Source: a virus. Taken from it: a stretch of DNA of 53,564 bases. Location of the stretch: positions 1 through 53,564 of the IMG/VR virus record IMGVR_UViG_3300032893_000063. The stretch is one strand, 5' to 3'. The stretch's first letter is position 1. Every line of letters begins with the position of its first letter. The notes under the pieces were generated by a model. It saw only the letters and a list, made by a program, of their open reading frames with translations. It was not told the DNA's origin and made no database searches. Positions 2,712-47,689 of this stretch are shown here, piece by piece. The translations under genes were made by a program, and so were the position numbers.

Positions 2712-2741
2712 TTGTAGCTAGCGAGTCGGGCATAGACTCCG

Positions 2742-2747: not shown

Positions 2748-2753
2748 GGAGCT

Positions 2754-3008
2754 ATGGGTCGTGAAGATTTCTCCGTCGAAAACGAATTAGTTGAGGTTAA
2801 AGTCCAGATCGCTCGAATCGATGAGCGACTAAAGAGCATTAGCGAGAAGCAGGACTGTACTCACGAAAGATTAGACGTCATTCTCACAAAAATGGGCAGC
2901 CATGCTAAGGCCATCGAACGTTACAAGACTGACCGGAAATGGATTGCGGGGATCTTCGGAGCCCTCTATGCCCTCCTCATTGCGTGGGTAGAGTATCGAT
3001 CTAAATAA
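2754..3008 (+). CDS. Small membrane protein with coiled coil, holin/XhlA-like
   Basis: 84 aa. Residues 6-60 form a charged heptad-like coil (VENELVEVKVQIARIDERL...), followed by one C-terminal transmembrane helix (WIAGIFGALYALLIAWV) and a short basic tail. This coil-plus-TM layout matches XhlA/hemolysin-like accessory lysis proteins and some inner-membrane spanin-like proteins. It begins a group of three membrane-type genes and one lipoprotein gene, which supports a lysis role. Holin activity itself cannot be read from sequence. Confidence 0.6.
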   Translation: MGREDFSVENELVEVKVQIARIDERLKSISEKQDCTHERLDVILTKMGSHAKAIERYKTDRKWIAGIFGALYALLIAWVEYRSK

Positions 3009-3041
3009 GGTTTTTACCCGCAAGACTCCTCTTACTCCTTC

Positions 3042-3050
3042 TGCTAAAAT
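3042..3050 (+). promoter_or_regulatory. Candidate extended -10 promoter (TGCTAAAAT)
   Basis: TGCTAAAAT has the TGn extension plus a near-consensus -10, and lies 26 bp before the ATG at 3077. The intervening sequence contains the strong ribosome site AGGAGGG. The + strand has similar TGn-type elements at 4280, 11222 and 37302, so this looks like a shared + strand promoter class. Confidence 0.4.
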
Positions 3051-3076
3051 AAGGGCATTCCTATAGGAGGGATTTT

Positions 3077-3529
3077 ATGACTTCAGTAGTCAATGCAATT
3101 AATGACGTTCTGAATGCGGCAAGTGTCACCTGGGCTCAGCTCTTTGGTGATGTCATGGCTGCTTTTCAGGGATTTGGTGGCCTAGCCTGGTCGATGAAGA
3201 TTGCTGTCGTCGTGATGGTAATCATCGGGCTTATGAAGATCAGCTCGCTCAGCAGCTTCTGGGCTAAGCTCGGCTCAGCACAAGCCTGGCTTGCTCCGGC
3301 TTTGGGCCTGCTCTTAGGCGTCTTAACCCTTGGGGCAAGCGGTCAGCTTTCTTGGTCCGGAGTTTTTGCTTATATGGGATCTGGAGCAGGAGCTATCGCT
3401 CTTCACGAGCTTCTCGATGCGGTTAAGTCAATCCCGGGTCTAGGGTCTGCCTACGTTTCGATTATCAATATGATCGAAGGCATTCTTCCAGGACCCTTGG
3501 CCAAGAAAAAGCCGATGATTAAGGCGTAA
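3077..3529 (+). CDS. Multi-span small membrane protein, possible holin
   Basis: 150 aa, preceded by AGGAGGG at good spacing. It shows hydrophobic segments near residues 38-54 (IAVVVMVIIGLMKISSL), 71-90 (WLAPALGLLLGVLTLGASG) and a weaker one near 98-112. The C-terminus is basic (AKKKPMIKA), expected for a cytoplasmic tail. Together with the coil-plus-TM protein upstream and the lipoprotein downstream it suggests a lysis module. It could instead be a membrane protein unrelated to lysis. Confidence 0.6.
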   Translation: MTSVVNAINDVLNAASVTWAQLFGDVMAAFQGFGGLAWSMKIAVVVMVIIGLMKISSLSSFWAKLGSAQAWLAPALGLLLGVLTLGASGQLSWSGVFAYMGSGAGAIALHELLDAVKSIPGLGSAYVSIINMIEGILPGPLAKKKPMIKA

Positions 3530-3535
3530 CCACCC

Positions 3536-3967
3536 ATGGGCATCATTCCAACCCCGGTAAATAACGTCGCAAATGCGATCAATGATGCGATTCAGATCGC
3601 GATCTTTGACGTGGCTTTAAACGCTCTTAAAGCCTATGCAATTGCCAATTTACCGTGGTTGGGATGGCCCGTTATCAACCAAATCTTTAACCTTGTTACT
3701 AATCTTATTGGGAAGTACGTTTATACCTATCTTTCGCAGATCGCTACCTTTACGGTGATCGATATGCAGACAGATGCGGAGCGGGCTGCTTATAGCCAGG
3801 CTTTAGTTAACCTTCAGGCTGCCTACACGACAGGAGATCAGAATGCAATCGGACAGGCCACGTCCCAAGTCAAAACAGCTTTGGCTTCTCTCATTCACTT
3901 TGATGGGAGCTCTACTGTTCAGCTTAGGGCAATTTTCAGGCTGCGCCAGAGTCACTATCAAAGATAG
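3536..3967 (+). CDS. Hydrophobic protein of the lysis-like cassette
   Basis: 143 aa with long Ala/Ile/Val-rich hydrophobic stretches (residues ~20-75) and a helical Ala/Gln-rich C-terminal half. Its last 125 bp overlap the start of a lipoprotein gene in another frame. That is the arrangement of Rz/Rz1-type spanin pairs, although the long soluble coil expected of a classical Rz is not obvious. The start is the ATG at 3536, 6 bp after the previous stop. A membrane role is likely; an inner-membrane spanin role is only suggested by the overlap. Confidence 0.5.
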   Translation: MGIIPTPVNNVANAINDAIQIAIFDVALNALKAYAIANLPWLGWPVINQIFNLVTNLIGKYVYTYLSQIATFTVIDMQTDAERAAYSQALVNLQAAYTTGDQNAIGQATSQVKTALASLIHFDGSSTVQLRAIFRLRQSHYQR

Positions 3968-4274
3968 TGAGTGGTGCGGCGATCTCGGAAGCCAGGGTGC
4001 GGCGTGCTTTCACACACTGACGACTGCTGAAGAGGACCTCCCTAAAGCAATCTGGGATCTCAGACGATTTGGCCAAGTTTGCACAACTGCCGATACCTTT
4101 GCAGACTGGAAACAGGTGATCGAGGATCTTTGCTCTTACTCGAATGACTGTGACTATCAGACCCAGCAGAGCATCCAAGAGTTCTTTAAAAAGGTCGACA
4201 AATTTAAGGCTAAGAGAGACCAAGTTCTTAAAGAGATGGACGCCGATATGCGTTACCGGCTGACTCATCCATAA
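3843..4274 (+). CDS. Lipoprotein embedded in upstream gene, spanin-like
   Basis: 143 aa. With the ATG at 3843 the N-terminus has a basic n-region (RPRPKSK), a hydrophobic core (LWLLSFTLMGALLFSLG) and a lipobox-like FSGC near residue 34. An internal ATG at 3903 would leave a shorter signal. The mature part is acidic/helical with several Cys. It overlaps the preceding membrane gene by 125 bp in a different frame, reminiscent of outer-membrane Rz1-type spanins, although it is longer than typical Rz1. The lipoprotein call is fairly secure; spanin function is inferred. Confidence 0.6.
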   Translation: MQSDRPRPKSKQLWLLSFTLMGALLFSLGQFSGCARVTIKDSEWCGDLGSQGAACFHTLTTAEEDLPKAIWDLRRFGQVCTTADTFADWKQVIEDLCSYSNDCDYQTQQSIQEFFKKVDKFKAKRDQVLKEMDADMRYRLTHP

Positions 4275-4279
4275 GCGTA

Positions 4280-4288
4280 TGTTATTCT
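4280..4288 (+). promoter_or_regulatory. Candidate extended -10 promoter (TGTTATTCT)
   Basis: TGTTATTCT lies just after the lipoprotein gene stop and 17 bp before the ATG at 4306. A ribosome site (TAGGAGAT) sits between. It belongs with the other TGn-type elements on the + strand. Confidence 0.35.
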
Positions 4289-4305
4289 AGGCGTAGGAGA
4301 TCAAG

Positions 4306-4749
4306 ATGGCTAACCCGACAATCGTTTTCTTTGGGCAAATGCCCACCACGATCGTGATGCAGTCGACGAGTCAGTTTGACGGAACTACTCCGCAGACCAT
4401 CAGCTACCCTACGAATCCTGTGATGAGTCCAGCACTTTACGTCTTTGCTCCTCAGGCAGGAGGAGGTCTTTATAACTTTCATGATCTCGTGGGGACTCAG
4501 GAGTCCATTACTATCTTGAGCATTTCTTATAAGGGCGGTGGGAGCTTAGCAGTCAGCCGTTACTACTCCAACGTTGCCGGAACTCCATCAATCCCTGTAG
4601 GAACTATTACGACTGCGGGAGACCTTGTTTTTGAGACCGGAGATCTCACGCTTTCTCCTTACGAAGACCTTACTTTTATCAGCACAGGAGCAACCAACCC
4701 CATCGTAGCTGTCACTGCGATGCTCACCTCAAGCACTTGGGCGAGTTAA
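4306..4749 (+). CDS. Unknown virion-type beta-rich protein
   Basis: 147 aa, Ser/Thr/Gly-rich with alternating hydrophobic residues, no Cys and few charged residues, as in small decoration or fibre-associated proteins. It starts after a clear ribosome site (GGAGATCAAG-ATG). The following gene begins 1 bp after its stop, so the two are probably co-expressed. No family recognised. Confidence 0.5.
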   Translation: MANPTIVFFGQMPTTIVMQSTSQFDGTTPQTISYPTNPVMSPALYVFAPQAGGGLYNFHDLVGTQESITILSISYKGGGSLAVSRYYSNVAGTPSIPVGTITTAGDLVFETGDLTLSPYEDLTFISTGATNPIVAVTAMLTSSTWAS

Positions 4750-4750
4750 A

Positions 4751-5128
4751 ATGCCATATTACGCTGGAGTAAGCGCCGAACAGTTAGCCAATATTTCGAC
4801 GAACCTGGAACTCCAGCAGAACGGTTCTCCAGCAGACCCCGTTGTTATCGAACAGTCTATTGGGATCGAACCCCTCCCCGTAAAGAGACAAGTTTGGTGG
4901 ATTGTGAGCACGGGCGGTGGATTAATCGTTACCGCGACTCCACAGATTGCCCCGGGAACCTTGCCCAACCAGGAACTCTATCTTGTCGGAACGGACCCCG
5001 TAAACTTCATCACGCTTGAAGACGGAAACGGTCTGAGTCTAAACGGAGAAGTAAGCATTGACGACCAGGAGACTCTTTATCTCATCTGGGATGGCAATAA
5101 CTGGAACGAAATCTCAAGGAGGAGATGA
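4751..5128 (+). CDS. Small beta-rich protein sharing a domain with the next gene's C-terminus
   Basis: 125 aa. From about residue 55 the pattern IVTATPQIAPG, then LYLVGTDPVNFITLED, then GLSLNG and a final W.E.SRRR matches the last ~75 residues of the downstream fibre protein (VTVTATPSV, ELVIIGTDNTNTVTLQD, GLSLNG, WVEDSRR). The two are therefore homologous modules. The stop overlaps the next ATG by 4 bp, indicating coupling. It may be a free-standing copy of a fibre-terminal domain, for example a trimerisation or capping module. Confidence 0.6.
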   Translation: MPYYAGVSAEQLANISTNLELQQNGSPADPVVIEQSIGIEPLPVKRQVWWIVSTGGGLIVTATPQIAPGTLPNQELYLVGTDPVNFITLEDGNGLSLNGEVSIDDQETLYLIWDGNNWNEISRRR

Positions 5129-6564
5129 CCGTGAACAAAACAAAACTAACAGCATTTTTAGCAATGATGCTTTTGTCTTGGTCAGCCCAAGCAAGCAGTA
5201 ACCGAATTCTCGATGGGCAGGAGATCACCAATAACGGTGCTGTCCTCACTCTTCCGACAACTACAGATACAATCGTAGGTCGAGCAACGAATGATACTCT
5301 TACAAATAAGACGATGAGCGGGTTGTCTAACACCTTCTCAAACATCTCTGGGTCATCGCTTGCTTCCGGAGCTGTGGTTACCAACTTAGGTTATACCCCG
5401 CTTAATAAGGCAGGGGATACCATGTCAGGTAGCCTGAACATGGGCGGATTTGCGATTACCAACCTAAGCGCTACCCCCCAGGCTAATGGCGCTGCCGTTC
5501 TTGATGGAAGTGCTAAGATCCCGGTCTCCGAGCTCCCAAGCACGGTCATGGAGTACCAAGGAGCCTGGAACGCCAACACCAACACACCTACTCTCGCCAA
5601 TACTGGGTGCGTTACCGGGACTAACGGCAACGTTTACCGAGTCAGCGTAGCAGGTACCCAAGATCTGGGCGCTGGAAGCATCACCTTCCAAGTAGGAGAT
5701 TTCGTCATTTGTAGCTCAACGCTTGGAGAGTGGCAGGATTCACCGGCTGCTGATGGGGTGACCTCTGTTAACGGTATGCAAGGAGCAGTGACAATCACTG
5801 CTTCTGGAATCGGTGCCGCCGCAAGCGGGGCCAACAGCGATATCACTTCTCTTTCCGGTCTAACTACTCCGCTCTCGGTTCCACAGGGAGGCACTGGGGC
5901 AGGAACTTGGACGTCAAAGGGTATCCTCTACGGAAACGGGACTTCAGCTCTTAACGTAACCGCCGCTGGAACTCAATATCAGGTGCTTCAAGCGGGTAGC
6001 GGTGGAACCCCTGCCTTTGATGCAGTTCATCTGGATCAATCTGCAGCTGTAACCGGAACTCTTCCGGTCAGTAACGGCGGTACAGGGGCCAGCACTTTGG
6101 CGCTCCATAACGTTCTTTTGGGTAACGGAACTTCCCCCGTGGCTACAGTAGCTCCTGGGACTTCAGGAAATGTTCTTACGTCTAACGGAACAACCTGGGT
6201 GAGTTCAGCCCCCTCGGTTACCAGCCCCTCTATCAACGGTGGGTCTGGGTCGCCAGAATCGGTTACTGCCGCAGGAGGAGTCACTCTTACGAGTATTGGC
6301 TATACGAACTATGTTTGGGTAGCTGGAAACGGAGGCGCAGTCACTGTGACTGCTACGCCATCTGTTACTGCCTGCGCTTCCGATGGGCAGGAGCTCGTGA
6401 TTATTGGGACTGACAATACCAACACTGTAACATTGCAGGACCAAAGCAATTTAGCTAGCAGCGGCTTGAGCCTAAACGGTAACTGGGTTGGCGCTAAGGA
6501 CAGTGCCATTACCCTTCACTGCGACACCACTCAGGGGCTGTGGGTTGAGGATTCTAGACGTTAA
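5125..6564 (+). CDS. Fibre-like protein with N-terminal Sec signal peptide
   Basis: 479 aa. The N-terminus is a signal peptide: basic start (VNKTKL), hydrophobic core (AFLAMMLLSW) and an AQA cleavage site near residue 23. The rest has tail-fibre features: NKTMSG, YTPLNKAGDTMSGSLNMGG and repeated VSNGGTGAST / VPQGGTGAGT motifs, typical of phage fibre shafts. The last ~75 residues repeat the domain of the preceding small protein. A signal peptide on a fibre-like protein is unusual because tail fibres normally assemble in the cytoplasm. The start overlaps the upstream stop by 4 bp. Confidence 0.75.
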   Translation: MTVNKTKLTAFLAMMLLSWSAQASSNRILDGQEITNNGAVLTLPTTTDTIVGRATNDTLTNKTMSGLSNTFSNISGSSLASGAVVTNLGYTPLNKAGDTMSGSLNMGGFAITNLSATPQANGAAVLDGSAKIPVSELPSTVMEYQGAWNANTNTPTLANTGCVTGTNGNVYRVSVAGTQDLGAGSITFQVGDFVICSSTLGEWQDSPAADGVTSVNGMQGAVTITASGIGAAASGANSDITSLSGLTTPLSVPQGGTGAGTWTSKGILYGNGTSALNVTAAGTQYQVLQAGSGGTPAFDAVHLDQSAAVTGTLPVSNGGTGASTLALHNVLLGNGTSPVATVAPGTSGNVLTSNGTTWVSSAPSVTSPSINGGSGSPESVTAAGGVTLTSIGYTNYVWVAGNGGAVTVTATPSVTACASDGQELVIIGTDNTNTVTLQDQSNLASSGLSLNGNWVGAKDSAITLHCDTTQGLWVEDSRR

Positions 6565-6587
6565 TACTAGACCTAGAGAGGAAACTC

Positions 6588-9500
6588 ATGAAGCGGGTTC
6601 GCCATCTTATCTTGGGGTTAGCCCTAATCTGGTGCTCCGCTGCAAACGCAGCGGGCACCAGAACTCTTGATGCGGATAATTTTATCGACTCAAGTCACGC
6701 CTCGACGTGGTTACAATACAGTTCCGGAAATACGACCATTAATGGAACGTTCACGACCCTAGGAACCCAAGATACCACCACTTTTGTTTTATCTGCATTC
6801 AGCGGACAAACAAATAACCTTGTTGAGATGGACGACTCTCAGGGCAACGCTAATGTTACTTTTGGTCCTGATGGAAACCTTGCTATCGGGTTCAATGACT
6901 TCTTACCCAGCGATGTTCTCCAACTTTATTCTGATGGTACTGGGAACCTGATCAATGGATTTAATCAGAGTTCCCAGGTGTTCTGGGTAACTGGAACTGG
7001 TGATACCCACGTACATTCAATTACAGCCCCTGATGGCCTAATCCTACCTACATCTATTTCGCAACCCACTTGTAACTCGACTAACCGAGGGTGGGTGTGG
7101 ATTGTCCAAGGTGGTGCCGGTGTTGCTGATAGCTATCAAGTTTGCGAAAAGAATTCTTCCAACGCCTATGTATGGACTACTTTAGGCGGCGTTACCACCA
7201 TGGGCGCATTTGGATCATCTCCCAACGCTAATGGTGCAACGATATCGGGTTCTACCCTCACACTTCAACCAGCAAGCACAAGTTTCTCTGGCGGGGTAAC
7301 GACGGGAACTCAAAGTTTTGCTGGAGATAAAACGCTCACGGGTACGACAACTGCGCACAATACCGGGTCCGCAATCAGCCTCATCGTTCAATCTAATGGC
7401 AGCTCTGCTGGATTTTTAATGGAAGATTCCGGCGCAAATCAGGTCTTATATATTTCGAACGACGGAAAGATCGTGATGCAGCCGGTGACAGCCAACAACG
7501 GTAGCAACCCTTGGATTGGGTACGCACAACCTTCGGGGGATACTAGAAACTTTATTACCTTTGGGGATTCCGTCCAAGGGCTTGGTTGTTCCGGAGTTCA
7601 CTGTACTTGGCAAGTTACGTCTGACGGTACTGTCCAGGGGAATCACGTAGGATTGGGCACCGCGTACTACGCGAATGGTACGACTGGAAACATCTGGTCG
7701 GCTGGAAATATCACAGCTACGAGCGCTGGGTCGTCGTTTGACGGTCTTGATCTTCAGTCTCAGACTCTTTCTAGCGTAACGCTCGTTAATGGAACTGATG
7801 TTGGAAATTCTGGAAATCTAAGCCTCACCTTACGAGGAGGCAATACTCCTGGATTCACTGTCGGGGCAAGTCTCTTTCTTGATGCTGGTCAGGGCAATAC
7901 TGGCTTTGGCGGCAACGGAACTTTGTCTGGCGGAGACGGAAGTAGCCAAGGTGGTTCGCTTACTATTTCTGGGGGTCACTCCAACTCTGCAGCTGGGGAT
8001 ATTACTCTTCAAGCCGGTCAGCCGACAGGAAGCCCAGCTACTCATGGAGCTCAAATTGTTCTCAATCACGGTGATGGTGGCTCAGGAGCTGGTGGTAATC
8101 TCCAACTTAACGGCGGAGATGACAACGGTGCTGCTGGGGGAGACGTCACAATAACTGCTGGCGGCGGGACTCCAGGCGGAGCCATTTATTTTCAATCAAA
8201 CACCACATTCTCAGGATTCATTGATGAGGCTCAGCAGAGCACTCCAGCCAACCCTGCGTCTGGGCACGACCGTCTCTACTTCAAAAGCGACGACAATCTT
8301 TACAAACTTACAAGTGGTGGCACTGAAACAATGATTGGTGGCGGCGGTGGCAACACCGGCATTGATCAAGAGAGCGCCGTCAATGGTAATACACCCTATA
8401 CCATGACAAAAACTGCAGGATTAACGCTTGAAATGGGTATTGGCGCTGGCTACAACGACGATAGCCAAGTGGTGAGGTTGCCAGACGCAACAACTTTACA
8501 AATAGGGGATGCGGTTGTTATCACTACTATTGCCTCAACCTACCCGGGTCAAACATTTCAATCTCACTACATAACAGTAAAGAAAAACAGCGGAGCTAAC
8601 CTCAGTGGATTCGGTAGCCCCATTCTTTATTGGAACCAGAGTATTGCCCTAGTCTGCACAGATAATTCTTCAGCAAACGGAAGCTGGCAGGTTACAAGTA
8701 CGACATTTAGTCGCGATAATGGGGATGACTTATTTCTTCAGGGGAACCTTTCCCTTTGGAACGGCGGAACAGTAGAGACTGATTATCTAGCCAGTTACGC
8801 CGGTAGCGGAATCAATTTACAGGATAGTCTTTTTGTATCCCCCGGGACCGATGTTATCCCCCTTACTGTCAACGAGATCAGTGGGGCCACGTCTGATTTT
8901 ATTAATTTGAAAACGTCTACGCCGGTTACCGTATTCAAAGTAGACCACCAAGGAAATACATCGATTACTGGCACCGCAGACGCAGTAGAGTTAACAGTAA
9001 ATGGGGCTAGCGGACAGACAAATAATGCGATTAATGTGCTCGGAGCATTGAACGGAGTTATTTTCACCGTAGGTTTTAATTCCAACCAATGGGGATTAGT
9101 TGGGATAAACGGAGACATAAATATTCAGGGATCAGATGATTCAACTGAAGTTACTGCCTCTGGATTTGGGCTTTCCAATTTCTCTGCTGACGTTACCTCT
9201 GGAAGTACCTGTCTTGCCAATCCAGATAATTTAACTGGTGTTGCTAACGGGCAGTATGTTTTTGACGAGTCTAACCCCTCGTATATTAGACTCGGAACAA
9301 TCGTAACAGGACTGCCTGGTGGATGCCCTGCGGGACAAGTCGAAATCTCTCTTCCGGCTACTGGGACTGCGACGGGAGACCAGATCGCAACGGGGCAGGA
9401 AGCGGATGTCGCCGATTATAACAGCGCCGGGGGCGTTACCTCACTCGCTGTATTGGGAAGCGGGAAAGTAGCTCTTACTAATGGCCCGCCCTTTTCGGGA

Positions 9501-22131: not shown

Positions 22132-24009
22132 ATGTTAAGCGCCAACGACGGCTCACCAGATGTCGCAAGTCTAGACCCGAACCTTCGCTTAGTAGGCGAT
22201 AGGAACAGGACTCGCTACCCATCACCCTTCTTCGACGTTTCGCAGCAGTATGTCCCGCCCACGATTAAAGAGCTCTTCAAGTGGGTCTATTACTACGCGA
22301 CAAACAACTCCTTCCTTGGCCCGGCTCTTTCCAAGATCGCACGCTACCCGGTCACCGACCTTATCTTAGAAGATAACAATCCCGAGCTTGTTGAGAATTG
22401 GAAAATGCTCCTCAACAACACTCTCCAGATTAAGACGTTTCTCATGGAAACGAATCTCGATCTTGTAACTTACGGGAACGCCTTTGTTACGATTCACTAT
22501 CCTGCGGCACGCTTCATCAAATGCGAAAAGTGTCGCGAAACTTACCCTTGGAAGATGATCCAAAAGAAGATCGATAATCTTAGGATCAAAATCAAATGTC
22601 CCAAGTGTGGGTATGACGGCGACGCCATTATTAAAGACGCGCCCTACAAGTCTGCCGAAAACATCAGACTTGTGCGAATCAACCCAGAATTTATCGATAT
22701 TAAATATAACGACGCAACTGGACGCCACACCTATCTCTATTCAATTCCAGATAAGCTTAAGCGCCAGATTATGAGCGGTGATCCAGACATCCTGGAAGAC
22801 ACACCACAGATTTATATCGACGCAATTAAACAGAGAAAGAAGATTAAGCTCAGTACCCAGAACCTGTTTCATCTAAAGCGCCCCACCCTTGCCGGTAAGG
22901 ACATGGGCTGGGGAATGCCGCTGATTGCGGTAGCGCTGAAGGATCTCTACTACTTCTACACCCTCCGTCGCGGGCAGGAGGCTATCATTAATGAACACAT
23001 CGTACCGTTTGATGTCCTTTTTCCGCAGGCTAACGGAAAGTTTGATCCTTATGTCCACTCCGATCTTTCTTCCTGGAAACGAGAAATCGAAAGACAACTC
23101 GCCCACAGAAGAAAAGACCCTAACTATAAGGCTGTGCTCCCCTTTCCGGTTGGCTTTGAGCGTATTGGCGGAGACGGCAAGGCTCTTCTTCTAACACCGG
23201 AGCTCGACTTCTTAGCTAAGACCATCATTGGCTCTGTTGGCATACCGCAAGAGTTCGTCTTCGGCGGAACCATGAGCTGGACAGGCTCCAGCATTAGCTT
23301 AAGAACCCTGGAGAACGACTTCCTTCACCATCGCTCCCAACTTCTTCAGCTAACAATCTGGCTTGTCGAAAGACTCAGAATCTATCTGAGCATACCGACG
23401 CCAAAGACAATCAAGTTCTCCGATTTTAAGATGGCTGATGACATGCAGAAGCTTCAGCTCTTGATGGGAATGGCGTCAAATGACAAGCTTGATTGGGATA
23501 GCCTCCAAAAAGAGCTCGGCTACGACCCAGAAGTTATCAGAAAGAAAATCGAAGAACAGAAGCTCTTTGAAGCCAAAATGCTTGAGATTCAAACTGTACG
23601 CGCTGCCGAAGCTCAGGCCAAGGCTCAGAAAGTTCAAATGCGCTACATGCAGCAAATGCAAGAAGATGCCGTTGCGCAAAATGCTCAGATGGCTGACCAG
23701 ATGGGCGACGGTCAGGTCCCTGTTCCCGGAGCAGACCCGGAAGGGGAAGCGGCTGACGCTCAGGATAAGACCATCCAAACCTGGGCTAAAAAGTTAGTAG
23801 GACAAGACCCCAATACCCAAGCTCAAGCTCTCGCTAGGTTACACCAGCAATCCCCAGAATTTGCGGCAAAACTCAAACTCGCCATCTCACAACTTTCACA
23901 ACCTCAGATGCCAGAGGTATCGCAAGGACCGGCACAACCCACTCCGCAAGGAGCGGATATGCGCCCGCTTCCAACTCAGAGACCTCCTCGTAGAAAAGGA
24001 GGCGTCTGA
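22132..24009 (+). CDS. Phage portal protein with inserted zinc ribbon
   Basis: 625 aa after GAAGGAAG. It has portal-family features: TIKELFKWVYYYATNNSFLG near residue 43, LVTYGNAF near residue 111, a long central region with LLLTPELDFLAKTIIGSVGIPQEFVFGG near residue 352, and a TGSSISLRTLENDFLHHR segment. The C-terminus is Gln/Ala-rich and helical. An unusual insertion at residues 131-159 carries CEKC and CPKC (Cys131, 134, 156, 159), a plausible zinc ribbon. The portal forms the dodecameric ring for DNA packaging and tail attachment. Its stop overlaps the next start. Confidence 0.85.
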   Translation: MLSANDGSPDVASLDPNLRLVGDRNRTRYPSPFFDVSQQYVPPTIKELFKWVYYYATNNSFLGPALSKIARYPVTDLILEDNNPELVENWKMLLNNTLQIKTFLMETNLDLVTYGNAFVTIHYPAARFIKCEKCRETYPWKMIQKKIDNLRIKIKCPKCGYDGDAIIKDAPYKSAENIRLVRINPEFIDIKYNDATGRHTYLYSIPDKLKRQIMSGDPDILEDTPQIYIDAIKQRKKIKLSTQNLFHLKRPTLAGKDMGWGMPLIAVALKDLYYFYTLRRGQEAIINEHIVPFDVLFPQANGKFDPYVHSDLSSWKREIERQLAHRRKDPNYKAVLPFPVGFERIGGDGKALLLTPELDFLAKTIIGSVGIPQEFVFGGTMSWTGSSISLRTLENDFLHHRSQLLQLTIWLVERLRIYLSIPTPKTIKFSDFKMADDMQKLQLLMGMASNDKLDWDSLQKELGYDPEVIRKKIEEQKLFEAKMLEIQTVRAAEAQAKAQKVQMRYMQQMQEDAVAQNAQMADQMGDGQVPVPGADPEGEAADAQDKTIQTWAKKLVGQDPNTQAQALARLHQQSPEFAAKLKLAISQLSQPQMPEVSQGPAQPTPQGADMRPLPTQRPPRRKGGV

Positions 24010-27720: not shown

Positions 27721-30700
27721 ATGAGAACTTTCTCTGGTCCAGAACAGTTTGATGCGCTCAAGAAAACGGTCGTCGAGTCGTATCAGAAGCTTTTCCCGGT
27801 ACAGAAAGATCCTAACGGAGCAAGTCTCCACCTCAATAAAATCTGGGTGGACGATCAAGCGCTTGACCCACACGACTATGTAGACCAGAAGAAAACCCGT
27901 CTAGCGGGCAATACCTGGGGAGCTCCAGTCTACGCTTCTCTTGAACTTAGAGACGGCACCGGTAAGGTCGTCGATCGCATGGAGAAAGTTCGTCTAGCGA
28001 CTATCCCAAGACTGACCCCACGTGGCTCCTACATCGTAGGTGGAAACGAATACCAGGTTGCTAACCAGCTCCGAATGAAAATGGGTCCTTATGTTGTTCG
28101 TACTCAAAAGGGTGACCAATATAAGGCTGTCTTGAGTCTGGGCGGTGAATTTAATAAGCGTCCCGAAATCCACTTTGACCCTATATCCAATAAATACACC
28201 GCTGTGATCGATCAAAGCAGGATGCCTTTGTACCCCCTCATGCACGCCATGGGAGTAAGTGACGAGGAGATGAGAAAAAACTGGGGTCCGGAGATTTTTG
28301 CAGCTAACCGTGTAGATCCCGATAAATATGTTCTCCGTTTTGCCGAGAAACTGACCAGAACGAAAACAGACAATCCCCAGACCGCTTCTGAAGCAATCAA
28401 GGCTTACGCCAAGACTGCGGTGACCGACCCCAAGGTTTCAGAAGTAACGCTTGGGAAAGCCTACCCGCACCTTCACCCAGGAATGCTTCTTGATACGAGC
28501 AAAAAGCTTTTAAACGTTTATCAGGAAAAGGCAGAACCAGACGATCCGGAAAACCTTCTTTTTAAAGAAGTCCTCTCCGCAGATGATATGTTGAGAGACT
28601 CCCTCTCTCAAAAGCAAAAGGTTAATAACCTTAAATTCATGTTGGCAAGGCACCTCGGTAAGAGGACTGCAATTAAAGACATGATTAACTTTAAGAAGCT
28701 CTCCGCCCCAGTGGAGTACTTCTTTACGCACGATGATCGTGTTTCTACCCCGGAACAGTACAACCCTGTTCACATGCTCTCAGAGACGCACAAGCTTACT
28801 ATGACCGGTACCGGGGGTATTAAAGATCCTCACACGATCATGCCAGAGATTCGTGAGGTTCATCCCTCTCACGTAGGATTTGTTGATCCCGTCCATACGC
28901 CTGAATCCGAAAAGATCGGCGTCATGCTTCATCTTACGACTGGAGCAATGAAAGAAGGGCGGGATGTCAAAACCCCAGTTATCAACACAAGAACTGGAAA
29001 GACAGAGTATCTTACGCCCCTAGAGCTTTATCGAAAGAATGTGGCTTTTCCTGACGAAGCCAAGCTCTCAGACGGGAAAGTCCAGTGGCGCTCTAGTCAG
29101 GTTAAAACACAAAAACTGGGGAAGCTAGGAGTCGTCAAACCATCCGAAGTAGAGTATGTGCTCCCCTCTCAGGCGACTCTTTTTAGCCACTCTACGAACC
29201 TGATCCCCTTTTTACAGAACGATCAGGGAAACCGCGCCATGATGGGCACCAAACATCTTGGGCAGGCAATCCCGCTCGTTGCCAGGGAAGCTCCTCTTGT
29301 TCAAACTGATATTGGGAATGGAACTACATTCCATAAGGCAATCGGAGAGCAATTCTCAGTTCATGCCCCAGTCGATGGTAAAGTAACCAAAGTCACACCA
29401 GATCATATTGAAATCGGAAAGACTAGAATCCCCCTTTACAACGATTTCCCGCTGAACCAGAAGACTTACCTTCACCACGAACCGGTAGTAAAAGTGGGAG
29501 ACACCGTTAGGAAAGGACAGCTTCTTGCTGATTCCAATTTCACTAAGAACGGGACTCTGGCTCTGGGGAAAAATCTTACTGTTGCTTACGTCCCTTATCC
29601 CGGACTTACATTTGAAGACGGCATCGTAATCACCGAAAGCGCTGCCAAGAAGCTCGCTTCTCAGAACATCTATAAGCATACTTTTGAAGTCGAATCCGGA
29701 ACGAGAATGGCTGACTTCAAAAAGTACACTGCTTATTACCCGAATACAGTAAGCAAAGAACTAAAATCCAAGTTCGACGAAGATGGGGTCATCCGCAAAG
29801 GATCGCTTGTTAACCCAAATGATCTTCTGATCATGGGGCTTAAATACGATCTCGCTAGCCCAGAGAATGCCACCCTTCGCAGGATCAACAAAGCTCTCCA
29901 AAAGCCTTGGTCCAATGCTGGGGTGAAATATAAGGGAGAGTTCCAAGGCGTTGTCACCGACGTAGTGAAAAGAGCCGGACAGATCGATGTCTTCGTAAAG
30001 GCAGTCGAGCCTGCAAAAGAATCAGACAAATTATCCGGGGTACACGGTAACAAGGGTGTAATCACTAAAATCCTCCCCGACAATGAGGCCCCAAGATTAG
30101 CCAATGGAACTATTCCAGACGTGCTGCTAAACCCTCATGGCATTATCGGTCGTATTAACCTAGGCCAAATCTACGAAAGTGCCGCATCTAAGATCGCAGA
30201 AAAAACCGGTAAGCCTTATGTAGTAAAGAACTTTTCTGGGGAAAACATAAACGACAAGATCCAAGAAGAGCTTAAAAAGCACGGAATTTCCGACATGGAA
30301 GAGATGATTCTTCCTAACGGGAAATCTATCGGAAAAGTAAGTGTAGGTAAGCCTTATATTCTTAGACTCGCTAAAACAGGCAAGTCCGGATTCTCAGCTC
30401 GCATGCCGATGACAAGCTACGACTTAAACCGACAACCTGTGAAGGGCGGGGAAGAGGGCACTAAGGCTCTGGACCTGATGACTTTCTATTCGATGCTTTC
30501 CCACGGGGCTAAAAAGAACCTGATTGATGCTCACCAGAAGAGCGAACAAAACGACGAGTATTGGCATGCCATCGAAATGGGTAAACCGCTTCCGGCCCCA
30601 AAGCCCACTTTCGCATTTAATAAATTCATTTCGCTTCTGCATGGGGCTGGAATAAATACGGTTAAGCAAGGCCAAGATGTGGTGCTAGCCCCTCTTACGG

Positions 30701-33700
30701 ATGGGGCAGTTAAAAGACTCAGCAATGGGGCTGTTACTGAGCCTGAGTTTCTTTACGGAAAGGATCTCAAAGAAAAGCGTGGGGGATTGTTTGATCCCAT
30801 TACAACAGGCGGAAAGTTTGGAGCCCATTACGCCCATATCGAACTTCCCGCAGCAATGCCTAACCCTGTCTTTGAGAAGGCGATCCGAACGCTCACAAAT
30901 CTTAAGCCAGGCGACTATAACGACATCATTGCCGGACTTAAGCATGTCAACGTGGACGGGGCTGTCTTAAGCGAGCCTGCCAAAAATACTCTTACGGGCG
31001 GTCCTGGTATCTCTAGACTCCTAGGCAGAATTGATATCGATCGCGATCTCAAGACGTTTAAAGATAATCTAGCAAAAGCTAAAAATGAGACTGAGGTAGA
31101 CATCCTCAATCGAAAGATGCGCTATCTTTCTGCGCTTAAGGAACTTAACCTTAAGCCCGAAGAAGCCTACATGAGAAAACTCGTCCCCGTAGTGCCACCC
31201 CAATACAGACCCGTTTACGAAACCCCAAAACAGGGTTTAAGGGTATCTCCGGTCAACTACCTCTACCAGAGCGTGGGACTCCTTTCCAAGTCACACGATT
31301 ACCCAGTCATGAAACTTCTCCCTGAGAGTGAGAAGGCAGAGCTCAACACGGATACGTATAAATCCACAAGAGCTCTTGCTGGACTTGAGCCTGTTCTTAC
31401 AAGAAGTAAGGATCATCCGATTGAGGGCTTCATTTCTCAGATCACCGGATCAAAGCCTAAAAAGGGCTTTTTTATCAGCAAGATCTTGGACCGAAGACAA
31501 GACCTAGTGGGTCGCGGTGTTATTACCGCCGCCCCAGATCTTGACGTGGATGAACTTGGAATTCCTGAAAAGATGGCTTGGAATATCTTCCGCCCATTTA
31601 TCGTAAGAGAATACACTGCGGCAGGAATCGGAGCCGACGTAGCTAGAAAAGAAATCGAGGCTCGTGATTCCAGGGCCAAGCAGATGCTTGAAGCTGCGAT
31701 GAACAAGAGAACCGTCTTGATGAATCGAGCCCCCTCTCTGCACAAATTCTCCATCATGTCCTTTAAGCCCAAGCTGACTGACGGTCTTGCCGTGAGGGTG
31801 CCGCCTCTTGTTTTGAAAGGGTTCGGAGGAGACTTCGACGGAGATGCAGTAACGATCCACGTTCCTACAAGCGACGAAGCTATCAATGAGTCTCGAAAGA
31901 TGTTCCCCTCAAATAACCTTTTTAAGCCGGGGACTGGCGAACTTATGATCATGCCATCTCAGGAAAGCGCTATTGGACTTTATTTCTTATCCCAAAGTGC
32001 TGAGGGTAGGAAAAAGATCAACTCTCTCCTTCCTGATAAGTTTAAGATAGACTCTGAGCTCAGCGCTAAGGCTGCCAGGCAGCTTTATAACAAGATCGCT
32101 AAAGAAGCCCCCAAGGATTACCACAACATTGTTTTTGATCTTAAAATGCTGGGGGATAAGACTGCCTATGAAAAGGGATTCTCAGTTGGCTTAAAAGACC
32201 TCGTCGTAGATACGGGGGTCAAGCAAAAGATCTTCTCAGCCGCAGATAAGAAAGCGGACGAAATTAAAAGAACAACTAAGCCTGGAATCGAACAAGATCG
32301 AAAGGTCTCGGATGTCTATAGCGCGGCTTCAAAAGAGGCTTACGAAACTATCAAGCGGGATTTGAAGGGTAAAAACAATAGCTTTTACCACATGGTTACA
32401 AGTGGTGCTCGCGGTAAGGACAGCCAACTCATGCAGCTACTCTCTGCGCCAGGAGTGGTTGCTGGGGCTAAAGATCGCCCAATTCCCATCCCGATTAAAA
32501 AGTCCTACGCAGAGGGGCTTAACACGAGTGATTACTTTGTTTCTTCTTACGGTGTTCGTAAGGGTATGACCGACCGGGTTCTTCAGACCTCTGCTCCAGG
32601 GGCGCTCAATAAAGAAATCATGGCAAGCACCCTAGATAACATTGTTACGGCTAGCGATTGCGGAACAGAAAGGGGAATCGATCTCCCTACCTCAAGTTCT
32701 GACGTCTACGATCGCTACCTCTCAAAAAGCCAAGCGGGGTTCCCAAGAAATACTCTTGTCACACCACAGCTCATCTCCGCATTGACTAAAAAGGGCGTCA
32801 AAACAATCCACGTCCGGTCCCCTTTAAAGTGCCTTGCGACCAAGGGAACCTGTGCGCATTGTTACGGAATTGACGAGCACGGACAACTTCCTCCAATTGG
32901 AGAAAATATCGGGGCCAAGTCTGGTCAGGCAATCTCTGAGCCGATGACCCAAATGACCATGAAGACTTTCCACACGGGTGGCGTGGCTGGAGAAGCCCCT
33001 GTTGCTAAGGGTTTCGAACGCATCAAACAGCTTCTTGAGATGCCTAAGCACACTGCCGGGGAAGCAACCCTTTCAAGAATCGATGGCCCAGTTACCAAGA
33101 TCGCGCCTGTGGCCACAGGAGGGTACGAAGTTCACGTGGGCACCGAGATTCACAAGGTACCCCCGCAGCGCGAGTTAAAAGTAAAGAAGGGAGACCATGT
33201 CTTGGCCGGAGATGTTCTTTCTTCGGGAGTGATCAAGCCCCAAGAGCTTCTCAAGTATAAGGGAATGCCCGCAGCCCAAAATTACATTGTCGACGAGCTT
33301 CATAAGGCTTATCAGGGGCAGGACATCCCTATGCAACGTAAAATCTTTGAAACCGTTGTGCGCTCCGTTGGGAATCTAACTCGCGTCGTTCATGCCCCAA
33401 AGCACGCTGAATTCAATGTGGGAGATATCATCCCCTACACCACCGCTGTTCACTATAACGAGACCCGGGCAGAAAAACTCCCTGCCTCCGAAGCTACTGG
33501 ATATCATTTACAATTCCCTGTTGGTAACCTCCCGCAATTCCACGTGATTACGGACAAGGACGTTTCTTATCTGAAGGGGATGGGATACAATCAAATAGAT
33601 GTGCTAAAGGAACCGCTCAAGCACGCACCTATTTTGACAGGTATTGATCGACTCCCGATCAATAAGAAAAATTGGATGGCGCAGCTAGGCTATCGCTACA

Positions 33701-33819
33701 TCAAAAACACGCTAACAGACGGAGCTGCTGAAGCGTGGAAAACAAAGTTGCAGGACACCCACCCCGTTCCTGCCTTTGCTTACGGTGCAACGTTTGGGCA
33801 GAAAAAGGAGCACTACTAA
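27721..33819 (+). CDS. Single-chain fused beta-beta' DNA-directed RNA polymerase
   Basis: 2032 aa. The N-terminal ~980 residues follow RNAP beta: VDPVHTPESEKIGVMLHL (cf. the IETPEG region), LGKNLTVAYVPYPGLTFEDG, and SDKLSGVHGNKG with both catalytic-site lysines (Lys770, Lys778), ending with a KGGEEGTKALDL region like GGQRFGEME. From ~985 onward it follows beta': GLFDPIT...HIELPAAM, VLMNRAPSLHKFS, the catalytic loop GGDFDGDAV (Asp1371, 1373, 1375), the bridge-helix region near 1600-1625, Zn2 cysteines (Cys1647, 1704, 1711, 1714) and trigger loop MTMKTFHTGG with His1751. The N-terminal beta' zinc site is missing. The length is below the summed bacterial subunits. No alpha, omega or sigma is visible here. 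No clear ribosome site precedes the ATG. Confidence 0.93.
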   Translation: MRTFSGPEQFDALKKTVVESYQKLFPVQKDPNGASLHLNKIWVDDQALDPHDYVDQKKTRLAGNTWGAPVYASLELRDGTGKVVDRMEKVRLATIPRLTPRGSYIVGGNEYQVANQLRMKMGPYVVRTQKGDQYKAVLSLGGEFNKRPEIHFDPISNKYTAVIDQSRMPLYPLMHAMGVSDEEMRKNWGPEIFAANRVDPDKYVLRFAEKLTRTKTDNPQTASEAIKAYAKTAVTDPKVSEVTLGKAYPHLHPGMLLDTSKKLLNVYQEKAEPDDPENLLFKEVLSADDMLRDSLSQKQKVNNLKFMLARHLGKRTAIKDMINFKKLSAPVEYFFTHDDRVSTPEQYNPVHMLSETHKLTMTGTGGIKDPHTIMPEIREVHPSHVGFVDPVHTPESEKIGVMLHLTTGAMKEGRDVKTPVINTRTGKTEYLTPLELYRKNVAFPDEAKLSDGKVQWRSSQVKTQKLGKLGVVKPSEVEYVLPSQATLFSHSTNLIPFLQNDQGNRAMMGTKHLGQAIPLVAREAPLVQTDIGNGTTFHKAIGEQFSVHAPVDGKVTKVTPDHIEIGKTRIPLYNDFPLNQKTYLHHEPVVKVGDTVRKGQLLADSNFTKNGTLALGKNLTVAYVPYPGLTFEDGIVITESAAKKLASQNIYKHTFEVESGTRMADFKKYTAYYPNTVSKELKSKFDEDGVIRKGSLVNPNDLLIMGLKYDLASPENATLRRINKALQKPWSNAGVKYKGEFQGVVTDVVKRAGQIDVFVKAVEPAKESDKLSGVHGNKGVITKILPDNEAPRLANGTIPDVLLNPHGIIGRINLGQIYESAASKIAEKTGKPYVVKNFSGENINDKIQEELKKHGISDMEEMILPNGKSIGKVSVGKPYILRLAKTGKSGFSARMPMTSYDLNRQPVKGGEEGTKALDLMTFYSMLSHGAKKNLIDAHQKSEQNDEYWHAIEMGKPLPAPKPTFAFNKFISLLHGAGINTVKQGQDVVLAPLTDGAVKRLSNGAVTEPEFLYGKDLKEKRGGLFDPITTGGKFGAHYAHIELPAAMPNPVFEKAIRTLTNLKPGDYNDIIAGLKHVNVDGAVLSEPAKNTLTGGPGISRLLGRIDIDRDLKTFKDNLAKAKNETEVDILNRKMRYLSALKELNLKPEEAYMRKLVPVVPPQYRPVYETPKQGLRVSPVNYLYQSVGLLSKSHDYPVMKLLPESEKAELNTDTYKSTRALAGLEPVLTRSKDHPIEGFISQITGSKPKKGFFISKILDRRQDLVGRGVITAAPDLDVDELGIPEKMAWNIFRPFIVREYTAAGIGADVARKEIEARDSRAKQMLEAAMNKRTVLMNRAPSLHKFSIMSFKPKLTDGLAVRVPPLVLKGFGGDFDGDAVTIHVPTSDEAINESRKMFPSNNLFKPGTGELMIMPSQESAIGLYFLSQSAEGRKKINSLLPDKFKIDSELSAKAARQLYNKIAKEAPKDYHNIVFDLKMLGDKTAYEKGFSVGLKDLVVDTGVKQKIFSAADKKADEIKRTTKPGIEQDRKVSDVYSAASKEAYETIKRDLKGKNNSFYHMVTSGARGKDSQLMQLLSAPGVVAGAKDRPIPIPIKKSYAEGLNTSDYFVSSYGVRKGMTDRVLQTSAPGALNKEIMASTLDNIVTASDCGTERGIDLPTSSSDVYDRYLSKSQAGFPRNTLVTPQLISALTKKGVKTIHVRSPLKCLATKGTCAHCYGIDEHGQLPPIGENIGAKSGQAISEPMTQMTMKTFHTGGVAGEAPVAKGFERIKQLLEMPKHTAGEATLSRIDGPVTKIAPVATGGYEVHVGTEIHKVPPQRELKVKKGDHVLAGDVLSSGVIKPQELLKYKGMPAAQNYIVDELHKAYQGQDIPMQRKIFETVVRSVGNLTRVVHAPKHAEFNVGDIIPYTTAVHYNETRAEKLPASEATGYHLQFPVGNLPQFHVITDKDVSYLKGMGYNQIDVLKEPLKHAPILTGIDRLPINKKNWMAQLGYRYIKNTLTDGAAEAWKTKLQDTHPVPAFAYGATFGQKKEHY

Positions 33820-34295
33820 TGTTTTCGGAAGGCTTCGAAAAATCAGCAGCGGTAAGGGAAGTGGGAAGAGCCGCAGGTAAATTTGTTTCTGCCCCATTCA
33901 AAGCTTTGGGGGCCGCAGGATTAGAAGCAGCACGGGGAGCTCGTCGGGGTGCCAAGGGTTTCGCCGAAGGTTTGGCTTCTGGATTGCCCATGAAAAGACT
34001 CTCACCCTCTATGAAAGTAAAGCCAGAGCGCGGGGCTGGATTGGCTTATAAGCACGTTTCTAGAGAAGCACGCCAGGGTAAACTGCCTGTCTCAATGCCA
34101 ACTGCTTATAAGTTCGAAAAGGAAAAAGTTCAGCAGAAGATGAAGGAGAGACTGAAGAAAATCAAAGAAGGCCCATCCTTCGTTTCCAAGCATCCCCTTC
34201 TTTCTGCTGTTGGAGCCTACGCAGGCTATAAGTACCTTACGTCACCTTCTGATGATAAGACTCCTGAGCCACAGGTTTATAGGCCATCTTACTAA
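33819..34295 (+). CDS. Basic protein with tag MFSEGFEKSA
   Basis: 158 aa using ATG 33819, which overlaps the RNAP stop (TAATG); a longer in-frame reading would lie inside the RNAP gene. Residues 2-10 (FSEGFEKSA) are a copy of the shared F-x-x-G-F-x-K-T/S-A peptide. The remainder is strongly basic, Ala/Gly/Lys-rich (GAAGLEAARGARRGAKGFAE), then a short hydrophobic segment (HPLLSAVGAYAGYKYL). Direct coupling to the RNAP gene is notable. Confidence 0.6.
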   Translation: MFSEGFEKSAAVREVGRAAGKFVSAPFKALGAAGLEAARGARRGAKGFAEGLASGLPMKRLSPSMKVKPERGAGLAYKHVSREARQGKLPVSMPTAYKFEKEKVQQKMKERLKKIKEGPSFVSKHPLLSAVGAYAGYKYLTSPSDDKTPEPQVYRPSY

Positions 34296-43504: not shown

Positions 43505-45127
43505 ATGAGCGGACTAAGTATCGAAAAAGAGTTCCTAAAGAACGGGGACGTTAAGACTAAACTCAAAGCTCTGAAGACAGATTGGATCTCTAGGCTTGTC
43601 TACCTCGACGGGAAACCCTTTAGCTTTAGCGGTCGCAACTATCTTCTTCCAATCTATAACAATCCCTCATCTCGTAAGCTTTTAATGTGTGGTCGTCAGG
43701 TTGAAAAGACGACTATGCTTGCCAACGAAATCATTATCAGTTCGGTCATTCAGCCCTACTATAAAACCCTCTATGTTAGTCCGAGCCATAGCCAGACCAG
43801 AGCTTTTTCAAACCAGAAGCTCAAGCCATGGATTACGGACTCTCCTATTATTTCGAAATACTTCCAGTCATCCAAGATTTCTCAGCAGGTTTTTGAGCGT
43901 GGATTTACAAACGGGAGTTTGTGTTTTTTAAGATCAGCCTTCCTTACCGCCGACCGTGTTCGTGGTCTTTCCTCCTACATGCTTTGCTTAGATGAGCTCC
44001 AGGACTTACTCACTTCTAATATCCCGGTCATTGAAGAGTGCCTCTCCCACGCACCCAACCCGATTGAAATCATGTCAGGCACCCCTAAGAGCCTAGAGAA
44101 TCCCATCCAGCTTTACTGGGAGGGTTCTAGCCAATGTGAATGGCTTGTTCCGTGTGATCACCACACGCCCGTTTACTACAACTACCTCGATGAGCAGAAT
44201 ATAGGACTTGATGGACCCATATGTAAAAAATGCGGGAATCCCATCGATCCGGCAAGGGGACAGTGGGTTGCCTTTAGCAGTGAAAGAGAAATCATGGGCT
44301 ATAGAATCAGCCAGCTCATGGTTCCCTGGTATCAGGACCCCAGAAAGTGGAAGGAACTCGTCTGGAAAAAAGAGAATCTTTCTAAGGGAAGCCTTTATAA
44401 CGAATGCTTGGGAATCAGCTACGACTCCGCAAGTAAGCCCATTACTCGGGCGGAACTCATCTCCTGTTGCTCAACCAAACATCAGTTCTGCCACCGCCCA
44501 ACTCAGTTTACTAATCGTGTTGAGCTTTTTGCTGGAGTAGATTGGGGTGAAGGAACAGACGGGACCGAGCGAGGGGCCAAGGGAAAGATCAGAAACGCGT
44601 CTTACACAGTTCTCGCCATTGGGCTTTATCTTGATCAAAAGCACTTTCATTATCTCTACTATAGACGCTTTGAAGGCAAGGATGCTCTCCCAGGTAACTG
44701 TGTGAATGAGATTATTCGAATCTGCAAGGACTTCCGCGTGAAGTGTATCGGAGCTGACTGGGGTCATGGGTGGGGAGTAAACGAAAGACTTGAAGAGGCT
44801 TTTGGTACCACGAGAGTGATTAAGTTTCAGCACGTGGGAAACCAGAGACAGCGCAAGAAATACGACGAAATCGGGCACAAGTTTCAGCTAGCTCGAAACG
44901 AAGTCATCACCGATTTCATCATGGATATCAAAGACCACAAGATCGTTTGGCCCGATTGGGAACACGTAAAAAATTATCTTTGCGATCTGGAACATATTTA
45001 CTGCGAATATAAAGAGGCTACTCGACAGATGGTCTATGACCACAAGCCCAGCGAACCCGACGATGCACTTCATGCTTCGATCTACTGCAAAGAAGCGGCG
45101 GATAACTATTACGGGAAGCAGCGATAA
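43505..45127 (+). CDS. terL: Terminase large subunit (DNA-packaging ATPase-nuclease)
   Basis: 540 aa. ATPase domain: a Walker A-like GRQVEKTT at residues 63-70 (the usual GK glycine is Glu67), LYVSPSHSQTR near 90, Walker B LCLDE with Asp163-Glu164, and a coupling segment SGTPKS near 194. A zinc-type insertion follows (CEWLVPCDHH ... CKKCG, about residues 210-245). The RNase H-like nuclease has Asp346 (GVDWGEG), Asp418 (GADWGHG) and Asp519/520 (PDDALHA). It translocates and cuts DNA at the portal. No strong ribosome site is seen before the ATG. The gene ends against a reverse terminator. Confidence 0.93.
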   Translation: MSGLSIEKEFLKNGDVKTKLKALKTDWISRLVYLDGKPFSFSGRNYLLPIYNNPSSRKLLMCGRQVEKTTMLANEIIISSVIQPYYKTLYVSPSHSQTRAFSNQKLKPWITDSPIISKYFQSSKISQQVFERGFTNGSLCFLRSAFLTADRVRGLSSYMLCLDELQDLLTSNIPVIEECLSHAPNPIEIMSGTPKSLENPIQLYWEGSSQCEWLVPCDHHTPVYYNYLDEQNIGLDGPICKKCGNPIDPARGQWVAFSSEREIMGYRISQLMVPWYQDPRKWKELVWKKENLSKGSLYNECLGISYDSASKPITRAELISCCSTKHQFCHRPTQFTNRVELFAGVDWGEGTDGTERGAKGKIRNASYTVLAIGLYLDQKHFHYLYYRRFEGKDALPGNCVNEIIRICKDFRVKCIGADWGHGWGVNERLEEAFGTTRVIKFQHVGNQRQRKKYDEIGHKFQLARNEVITDFIMDIKDHKIVWPDWEHVKNYLCDLEHIYCEYKEATRQMVYDHKPSEPDDALHASIYCKEAADNYYGKQR

Positions 45128-46825: not shown

Positions 46826-47689
46826 TTAGTTCACCACAATCGACACAGGCGCAGTAAGCGTCGTGGGGATTGAGGCTGGCGCAGTATACGCCGATATCGA
46901 AAGGTACTGGGCCGGAGCCTGGTTACCTACCGGTATCGAAGTACAGGTGCCATTCATAGCGCGATAGGATGCCGCAGTCAGGGTCTGGATCGTATTCGTC
47001 GTACGATACACACCACCAGCCGTGAACTGGAAAGTCACATTTGCTGGCGCTTGCATCGCAGAAACGTAAGCCGATCCTGTGCAGGTGGACGAGGTGAAAT
47101 AAGTTTGCACCAGATTCCCACCCAGAGTCATGTTCGTATAAGTCACCGCAACTTGATTGGTCGTGTCCCATACCACATAAGTATAGGTTCCAACGTTTTG
47201 GTTATTATACGTACCGTTCCCGTTCCAAGCGCTTTGCAGCAAGCCATTACCCACCTCTACGCCGTTCGCATAGAGCGAGATTGAGCTTGTTGCAGGAGTT
47301 CCTGGGTTACCCTGAGGACCTTGCGGACCTTGTGGGCCTTGGGAACCTTGAGCACCTGCGACGCCTTGAGATCCTTGAGGACCTTGAGCGCCTGTTGCTC
47401 CGACAGCACCGGTAGCGCCCACAGCACCATTGACACCATTTGTGCCGTTGGTTCCGTTTGCGCCGTTGGCAATAAACGCACCACTCCCGTCGCCGCAGGA
47501 AATTTGAGCACCTCCTGTAGCGGCAGCAGCAGCAGAGCATCCATTGGTTTGCACAAGCATCTTAGTGGGCGAACTCACAGTAGAAGTGCTCACCGAACTC
47601 GTGCTTTGGATATCGGACGAACTATTGCAGCCAGTCGCAGCAACGAACATCAGCGTAAGGGCAGACACCATCAACATAGCGTTCTTCAT
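46826..47689 (-). CDS. Phage-encoded lipoprotein with collagen-like Gly-X-Y repeats
   Basis: 287 aa after a strong AAAGGAGGCCC site. Residues 1-21 are a lipoprotein signal (KNAMLMVSALTLMFVAATGC, lipobox Cys21). After a Ser/Thr linker with two further Cys, residues ~75-132 form about 19 Gly-X-Y triplets (GANGTNGTNG ... GPQGPQGPQGNPG), likely a collagen-like triple helix. The C-terminal ~150 residues are a beta-rich head with two Cys. The protein should be anchored to a host membrane surface as a trimer. A role in superinfection exclusion or surface change is an inference. Collagen repeats are known from phage fibres, but the lipid anchor is unusual. Confidence 0.8.
   Translation of the reverse strand: MKNAMLMVSALTLMFVAATGCNSSSDIQSTSSVSTSTVSSPTKMLVQTNGCSAAAAATGGAQISCGDGSGAFIANGANGTNGTNGVNGAVGATGAVGATGAQGPQGSQGVAGAQGSQGPQGPQGPQGNPGTPATSSISLYANGVEVGNGLLQSAWNGNGTYNNQNVGTYTYVVWDTTNQVAVTYTNMTLGGNLVQTYFTSSTCTGSAYVSAMQAPANVTFQFTAGGVYRTTNTIQTLTAASYRAMNGTCTSIPVGNQAPAQYLSISAYTAPASIPTTLTAPVSIVVN

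Follow-up and report, generated by a model that had tools for sequence, protein, structure and literature searches.

A bacterial-type RNA polymerase with beta and beta' in one polypeptide in a large group of mostly uncultured phages

We describe here a phage gene that encodes a DNA-directed RNA polymerase (RNAP) of bacterial type in a single frame of 2032 codons, with zero internal stops and with the order beta to beta'. The gene lies in what we call the window, that is, the whole stretch of 53,564 nucleotides of the virus record IMGVR_UViG_3300032893_000063 that was analysed (Table 1). As judged from sequence comparison, a large and mostly uncultured phage group carries such a single-polypeptide core RNAP, and this fused one-chain family appears distinct from the phiKZ-type, the crAss-like and the separate-gene T4-capsid RNAP phages. 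We consider it very probable that the chain constitutes a catalytically complete core of bacterial type, free of alpha and with a promoter specificity of its own. A first-pass annotation of the DNA had pointed to beta and beta' motifs in one stop-free frame, and the open reading frame, the Pfam profiles and phmmer agree with that description.

The polymerase gene and the junction of its two halves

Pfam profiles match Rpb2_3 (residues 345-409) and Rpb2_6 (578-909) on the beta side of the window chain, and Rpb1_2 (1321-1394), Rpb1_4 (1525-1583) and Rpb1_5 (from 1599) on the beta' side. Searched against PDB chains with phmmer, the chain found B. subtilis beta' as its best match (E = 2.4e-106). 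We aligned 22 complete phage chains with rpoB + rpoC of E. coli, a phytoplasma, WWE3 and two further bacteria. On the beta side of this alignment, E. coli K1065/K1073 correspond to K770/K778 of the window, E813 to E632 and R1106 to R811; on the beta' side, R425 corresponds to R1336, D460/462/464 to D1371/1373/1375, the trigger-loop residues M932/H936 to M1747/H1751, and the Zn2 cysteines C814/888/895/898 to C1647/1704/1711/1714. The residue numbers that the first-pass annotation had given for the two lysines, the DFDGD triad, His1751 and the Zn2 cysteines were thus correct. The catalytic positions are kept across the 22 complete phage chains with few exceptions: L036, which sits on a long branch and carries an insertion at the metal motif, has N for the third aspartate, and the position of E632 is occupied by D in two rows. 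The metal motif itself reads GGDFDGD in the window and NADFDGD, the usual form, in most relatives, while the rifampicin-pocket positions of the complete phage chains differ from E. coli.

In the window chain one barrel bears the DxDxD metal site and the other the two catalytic lysines, as in two-barrel (DPBB) RNAPs, and its recognisable similarity to cellular beta and beta' is that of the cellular clade of these enzymes. In the mechanism that we propose, the beta half would contribute the catalytic lysines, and the beta' half the Mg-binding aspartates, the bridge helix and the trigger loop; we are highly confident that the 2032-aa chain would be enzymatically active. Structure prediction against bacterial RNAP, a check proposed at first pass, was done with AlphaFold on two partial segments, the 2032-residue whole exceeding the folding limit. 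Both models, of residues 480-1660 (mean pLDDT 86, pTM 0.76) and 850-2032 (mean pLDDT 77, pTM 0.70), resemble bacterial beta' chains in PDB, with E 1.7e-42 for the former and E 1.9e-64 and TM ~0.75 for the latter.

The absence of the N-terminal zinc site of beta', already noticed at first pass, holds for the whole alignment, where none of the 22 complete phage chains has a counterpart of the Zn1 cysteines C70/72/85/88. Every aligned phage chain shows instead a clean deletion, a 32-residue gap near residue 1032, and the N-terminal extension of the bacterial beta' is also deleted.

At the junction, a GIN motif at residues 976-978, the counterpart of the E. coli beta C-terminus, closes the beta half, and recognisable beta' starts ~10 residues on; the position near residues 980-1000 given by the first-pass annotation is therefore right. 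The segment comprising residues 957-1012 measures 56 aa in 53 of 70 phage chains, compared with at least 74 aa in bacterial pairs joined artificially. Purifying selection is seen along the whole chain including the junction, and over 101 residues of the junction and its surroundings the comparison of the window with L003 gave a pN of 0.07 and a pS of 0.91. Full-length homologous chains are present in two other contigs (81% and 58% identity), and the chain is uninterrupted in 79 of the 80 nearest IMG/VR contigs (the best 80 of 567 in a second scan), the last one ending at the contig edge. At least some 80 contigs of uncultured phages thus share the one-chain form. Other positions of the chain do get split among relatives, but the beta-beta' junction is split in none of 70 phage chains. 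A misassembly or a lost stop codon that produced a recent fusion, which the first-pass annotation had named, as frameshift or assembly error, among the findings that would overturn it, cannot explain the same layout in independent contigs together with a fixed junction length and selection across the junction. We regard this artefact as ruled out for practical purposes.

Table 1. Features of the window, with positions, strand and the basis of each assignment
Position	Strand	Feature	Basis
22132..24009	+	Portal protein, 625 aa, homologue of Arash gp204 (29%)	In 19/23 loci compared; upstream of RNAP
27721..33819	+	Single-chain DNA-directed RNA polymerase, beta + beta' (2032 aa)	ORF, Pfam, phmmer, alignment
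27721..30657	+	Beta half, residues 1-979 (lobe/protrusion, fork, flap, DPBB with K770 + K778)	E. coli rpoB alignment
30028..30054	+	Beta catalytic lysines K770/K778, DKLSGVHGNKG, residues 770-778	Invariant in all alignment rows
30658..30702	+	Beta/beta' junction, residues ~980-994, nearly linkerless	Length conservation, selection
30703..33816	+	Beta' half, residues 995-2032	Alignment; predicted model resembles bacterial beta', TM ~0.75
30817..30819	+	Site (~residue 1033) lacking the 32-aa N-terminal zinc domain of bacterial beta'	Alignment
31831..31845	+	Catalytic metal motif DFDGD, residues 1371-1375	Alignment
31981..32007	+	Split position of the sister clade (residues ~1421-1429), where the beta' C-terminal part is a separate gene	Relatives' layouts
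32527..32637	+	Bridge helix, residues ~1603-1639	Aligned to E. coli beta' 765-805
32659..32862	+	Zn2 site C1647, C1704, C1711, C1714	Alignment
32950..32982	+	Trigger loop core QMTMKTFHTGG, residues 1744-1754, His1751	Alignment
33819..34295	+	Basic protein of 158 aa beginning with MFSEGFEKSAA; its start codon overlaps the stop codon of the RNAP	Sequence
43505..45127	+	Terminase large subunit, GpA type	Sequence

A family with several gene layouts

The fusion had seemed unusual at first pass. It does not stand alone and belongs to a large family, with relatives in 187 IMG/VR contigs in a profile scan and in 567 in the second, beta'-based scan. We found three layouts among the phage relatives: one chain; beta joined to the N-terminal part of beta' with a separate C-terminal gene; and further splits. 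In the second layout the separate gene encodes the last ~600 residues (C-terminal third) of beta', and the split falls just after the DPBB that bears the catalytic aspartates; the further splits, in some relatives, fall at residue ~1072-1094 or 500. Cultured members of the split clade are Salmonella phage Arash (gp206 + gp216) and the Vibrio phages D69, D148 and D181, all of them homologous to the window chain and with the same beta-beta' junction, the beta' C-terminal third being separate. In D181 there is an extra break near residue 500, with a homing endonuclease gene inside.

In a tree of 76 rows the phage family was separated from bacteria with a support of 100, and the split-beta' chains formed one clade with a support of 99; the one-chain members lay outside that clade, the long-branched L036 not being firmly placed. 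Phylogeny of the two halves separately, which the first-pass annotation had recommended, led to the same picture, as both half-trees place the family apart from bacteria and recover the split-beta' clade. Since these trees come from quick searches with few bacterial rows, Helicobacter and Wolbachia being left out, we make no claim on absolute branch depth.

The natural fusions of Helicobacter and Wolbachia have the same beta to beta' order and are joined near the same place, as would be expected if the phages had captured a host rpoBC fusion of this kind. We consider such a capture very improbable: the phage chains are one clade apart from the sampled bacteria in full and half trees (which were built without Helicobacter and Wolbachia), the N-terminal zinc domain and the sigma contacts are lost, and a search of genome contigs returned only separate-gene bacteria, at 26-27%. 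Both phage clades have an intact junction, which is most simply explained by a fusion that preceded the split of beta' in the sister clade; the fused state would then be ancestral.

Other searches addressed further homologues. A scan of viral contigs with the beta' of Rhizobium phage Y65 gave zero relatives, a Carin-5/Y65 profile drew fused-family contigs and short beta' C-terminal matches with no clear separate-gene clade, and a BFVD fold search had no one-chain homologue among its best 50. Records L007 and L008 (OR846602.1 and OR844998.1, from wastewater), filed as 'Enterococcus phage' and 'Staphylococcus phage', contain separate rpoB and rpoC of bacterial type; they were considered as relatives of the mReC phages and rejected, since they fall among bacteria in the tree, and we treat them as what they probably are, bacterial contigs filed as phage.

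Some relatives show additional peculiarities. Intein-like insertions of ~320-510 aa interrupt the RNAP chain at several different places, each lying in a catalytic or highly conserved motif: after DFDGD (L024, L026, L036, L038, L043, L049, L081, L180 and L181), within or beside the DKL-GRHGNKG motif of beta (L186, L202 and L207), before the SRIN motif (L196) and near residue 395 (L172). The insertions of L024, L026 and L049 have LAGLIDADG Pfam matches, and those of L024 and L049 intein-splicing matches. The fused RNAP frame of L117 (IMGVR_UViG_3300022227_000020, 2587-8661) is broken by 11 in-frame TGA codons. At least several of these fall where relatives have tryptophan, and this phage apparently reads TGA as Trp. 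Long extra in-frame regions were found in the beta' C-terminal pieces of L054 (18498-22688), L053 (15942-19667) and L063 (15011-18343), that of L054 with AAA/kinase-like and acylphosphatase Pfam matches.

Comparison with known polymerases

The bacterial core (rpoB + rpoC) is like the window chain in its domains and their order, catalytic residues, bridge helix, trigger loop and Zn2 site. It differs from the phage family in its separate chains, its alpha, the N-terminal zinc domain and extension of beta', and the residues of the sigma clamp and the rifampicin pocket; separate beta and beta' with alpha in the genome, and the beta' N-terminal zinc domain, are found neither in the window nor in the family.

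Bacterial-type RNAPs apart from the bacterial rows are also borne by phages with separate genes (Rhizobium RHph_Y65, Yersinia YerA41, Cobetia Carin-5) and by the mReC phages. The T4-type capsid PF07068 is present in 4/4 separate-gene phages vs 0/55 family genomes; this capsid is also the one expected of mReC phages. The terminase did not serve as a marker between family and mReC: PF05876 is found in 25 of 27 family genomes, but PF03237 also matches some of them, weakly. Weinheimer and Aylward (2020) drew mReC phages from IMG/VR contigs and required NADxDGD (PMC7481178), a motif that the window, with its GGDFDGD, does not have; family members with NADxDGD may therefore have been met in that study. 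In its text beta and beta' are treated as subunits, and crAssphage is the sole case for which a fusion is mentioned (PMC7481178). An mReC RNAP is expected to be monophyletic and to lie outside the cellular RNAPs; our tree, built with few bacterial rows and without the published mReC sequences, groups the phage chains in a clade separate from those bacteria.

The RNAPs of phiKZ/AR9-type jumbo phages are, like the phage family, without alpha, and the split after the catalytic DPBB, common to phiKZ-type and cyanobacterial enzymes (PMC7598289), matches the split position of our sister clade. However, phiKZ types have 4-5 separate polypeptides and two sets per phage, whereas the family has one chain or a chain plus a C-terminal piece, and in the window and the nearest contigs beta and beta' are not each split into two or more polypeptides. 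Both catalytic barrels lie in one polypeptide in crAss-like gp66 and in Thermus phage P23-45 gp64/gp96, as in the window; these proteins are extremely divergent from cellular RNAPs (PMC10770324), while the window chain is recognisable at E ~1e-106. The crAss-like/YonO type has no readily detectable cellular similarity beyond DxDxD, which is not the case here. The first-pass view of a bacterial-like fusion, neither of phiKZ nor of crAss type, is thus upheld by an unsplit chain close to cellular RNAP. The accessible part of one paper mentions, without detail, RNAPs derived from multisubunit enzymes in which DPBB domains are fused (PMC10770324). In the open-licence literature, supplements excluded, we found no account of phages with a bacterial-like fusion of beta to beta'.

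Assembly, promoter recognition and gene neighbourhood

An alpha gene (PF01193) was found in none of 27 family genomes, which are incomplete, with 13 of 14 controls positive, and this supports the earlier suggestion that the enzyme may act without alpha. From this result, the joining of beta to beta' may replace alpha-dependent assembly: with a near-zero linker, covalent joining would substitute for the step that alpha drives, and the phage would then need no alpha gene. Assembly independent of host alpha seems probable to us, and host alpha or omega could still bind to the phage chain.

Positions R275, E295 and R297 of E. coli beta', which we take to be the clamp-helix sigma contacts, are lost, most or all of them, in the complete phage chains of the alignment. 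A sigma70 region-2 gene (Sigma70_r2) is present in 14/17 split-clade vs 3/28 one-chain genomes, incomplete as these are, and annotated sigma genes lie ~9 kb upstream of RNAP in Arash and D69. The sigma genes of the split clade would suit a non-virion enzyme for middle or late genes, recruited by a phage-encoded sigma factor. This is possible though rather doubtful, as sigma is found in just 3 of the one-chain genomes and the contacts on the clamp helices are lost, so that the phage sigma may act on host RNAP instead. For the one-chain enzyme we favour a sigma70-independent promoter route, and we give promoter recognition without host sigma70 somewhat better than an even chance. The enzyme would transcribe phage genes with a promoter specificity of its own, since its beta' half has lost both the N-terminal zinc domain and the clamp-helix residues that contact the host sigma. 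A search for T7-type RNAP gave no match, the control being equally silent.

The window also has tail, baseplate and terminase genes, and on the reverse strand (46826-47689) a collagen-repeat, tail-fibre-like protein. Upstream of the RNAP there is a portal gene in both clades, and in Arash and D69 the portal (annotated in Arash, as gp204, and recognised by homology in D69), one small gene and the RNAP adjoin on one strand. In the window, several small genes, some of them on the reverse strand, separate the RNAP from the portal cluster, which makes it uncertain whether RNAP and portal are co-expressed there. The coupled, tagged protein that the first-pass annotation had placed after the RNAP is indeed encoded from position 33819, and its MFSEGFEKSAA-type peptide is common to three other small window proteins. 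An N-terminal motif of MFxxGFxKTA type is seen on small RNAP-flanking proteins at 24582, 25028, 25402 and 33819 of the window and in L002, L012 and L015; in the form M-x(0-5)-GFx(K/R)(T/S)(A/S), it occurs in 12 genes of the window and three close relatives, vs 0.2 expected (shuffled DNA, 22 loci). The peptide is reminiscent of the capsid-targeting peptides of T4 and is possibly a targeting or packaging peptide; the RNAP chain itself is without it.

These observations bear on a virion RNAP, which would be synthesised late, packaged and then injected along with the DNA to transcribe early genes, like crAss-like gp66, N4 and P23-45 gp96. In its favour are the place of the RNAP in Arash and D69, right after the portal and one small gene, the nearness of genes for portal, baseplate and terminase in the window, and the peptide shared by the flanking proteins; the lack of this peptide in the RNAP and the reverse-strand genes before the window RNAP speak against it. 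We hold this role to be a serious possibility that falls short of an even chance. Virion packaging, raised at first pass, is no more than suggested: in the cultured relatives the gene follows the portal closely, but in the window small genes of both strands come between the two. The most complete picture, of a one-polypeptide RNAP that is self-sufficient without alpha, omega and sigma70 and carried in the virions of a large uncultured group, with an ancestral fusion and a later sister-clade split where cyanobacteria and phiKZ also split, is in our opinion unlikely to hold in all its parts.

If our reading of a one-chain core is true, these phages would have a natural minimal RNAP of cellular type in one gene, which would allow a direct test of whether such an enzyme can do without alpha, omega, sigma contacts and the zinc domain of beta'. 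The deposited relatives in Arash, D69, D148 and D181, now annotated as 'subunit beta' or hypothetical, would need a corrected annotation. Furthermore, the family would offer a recognisable, not hyper-divergent branch in which to study how phages acquired cellular RNAP.
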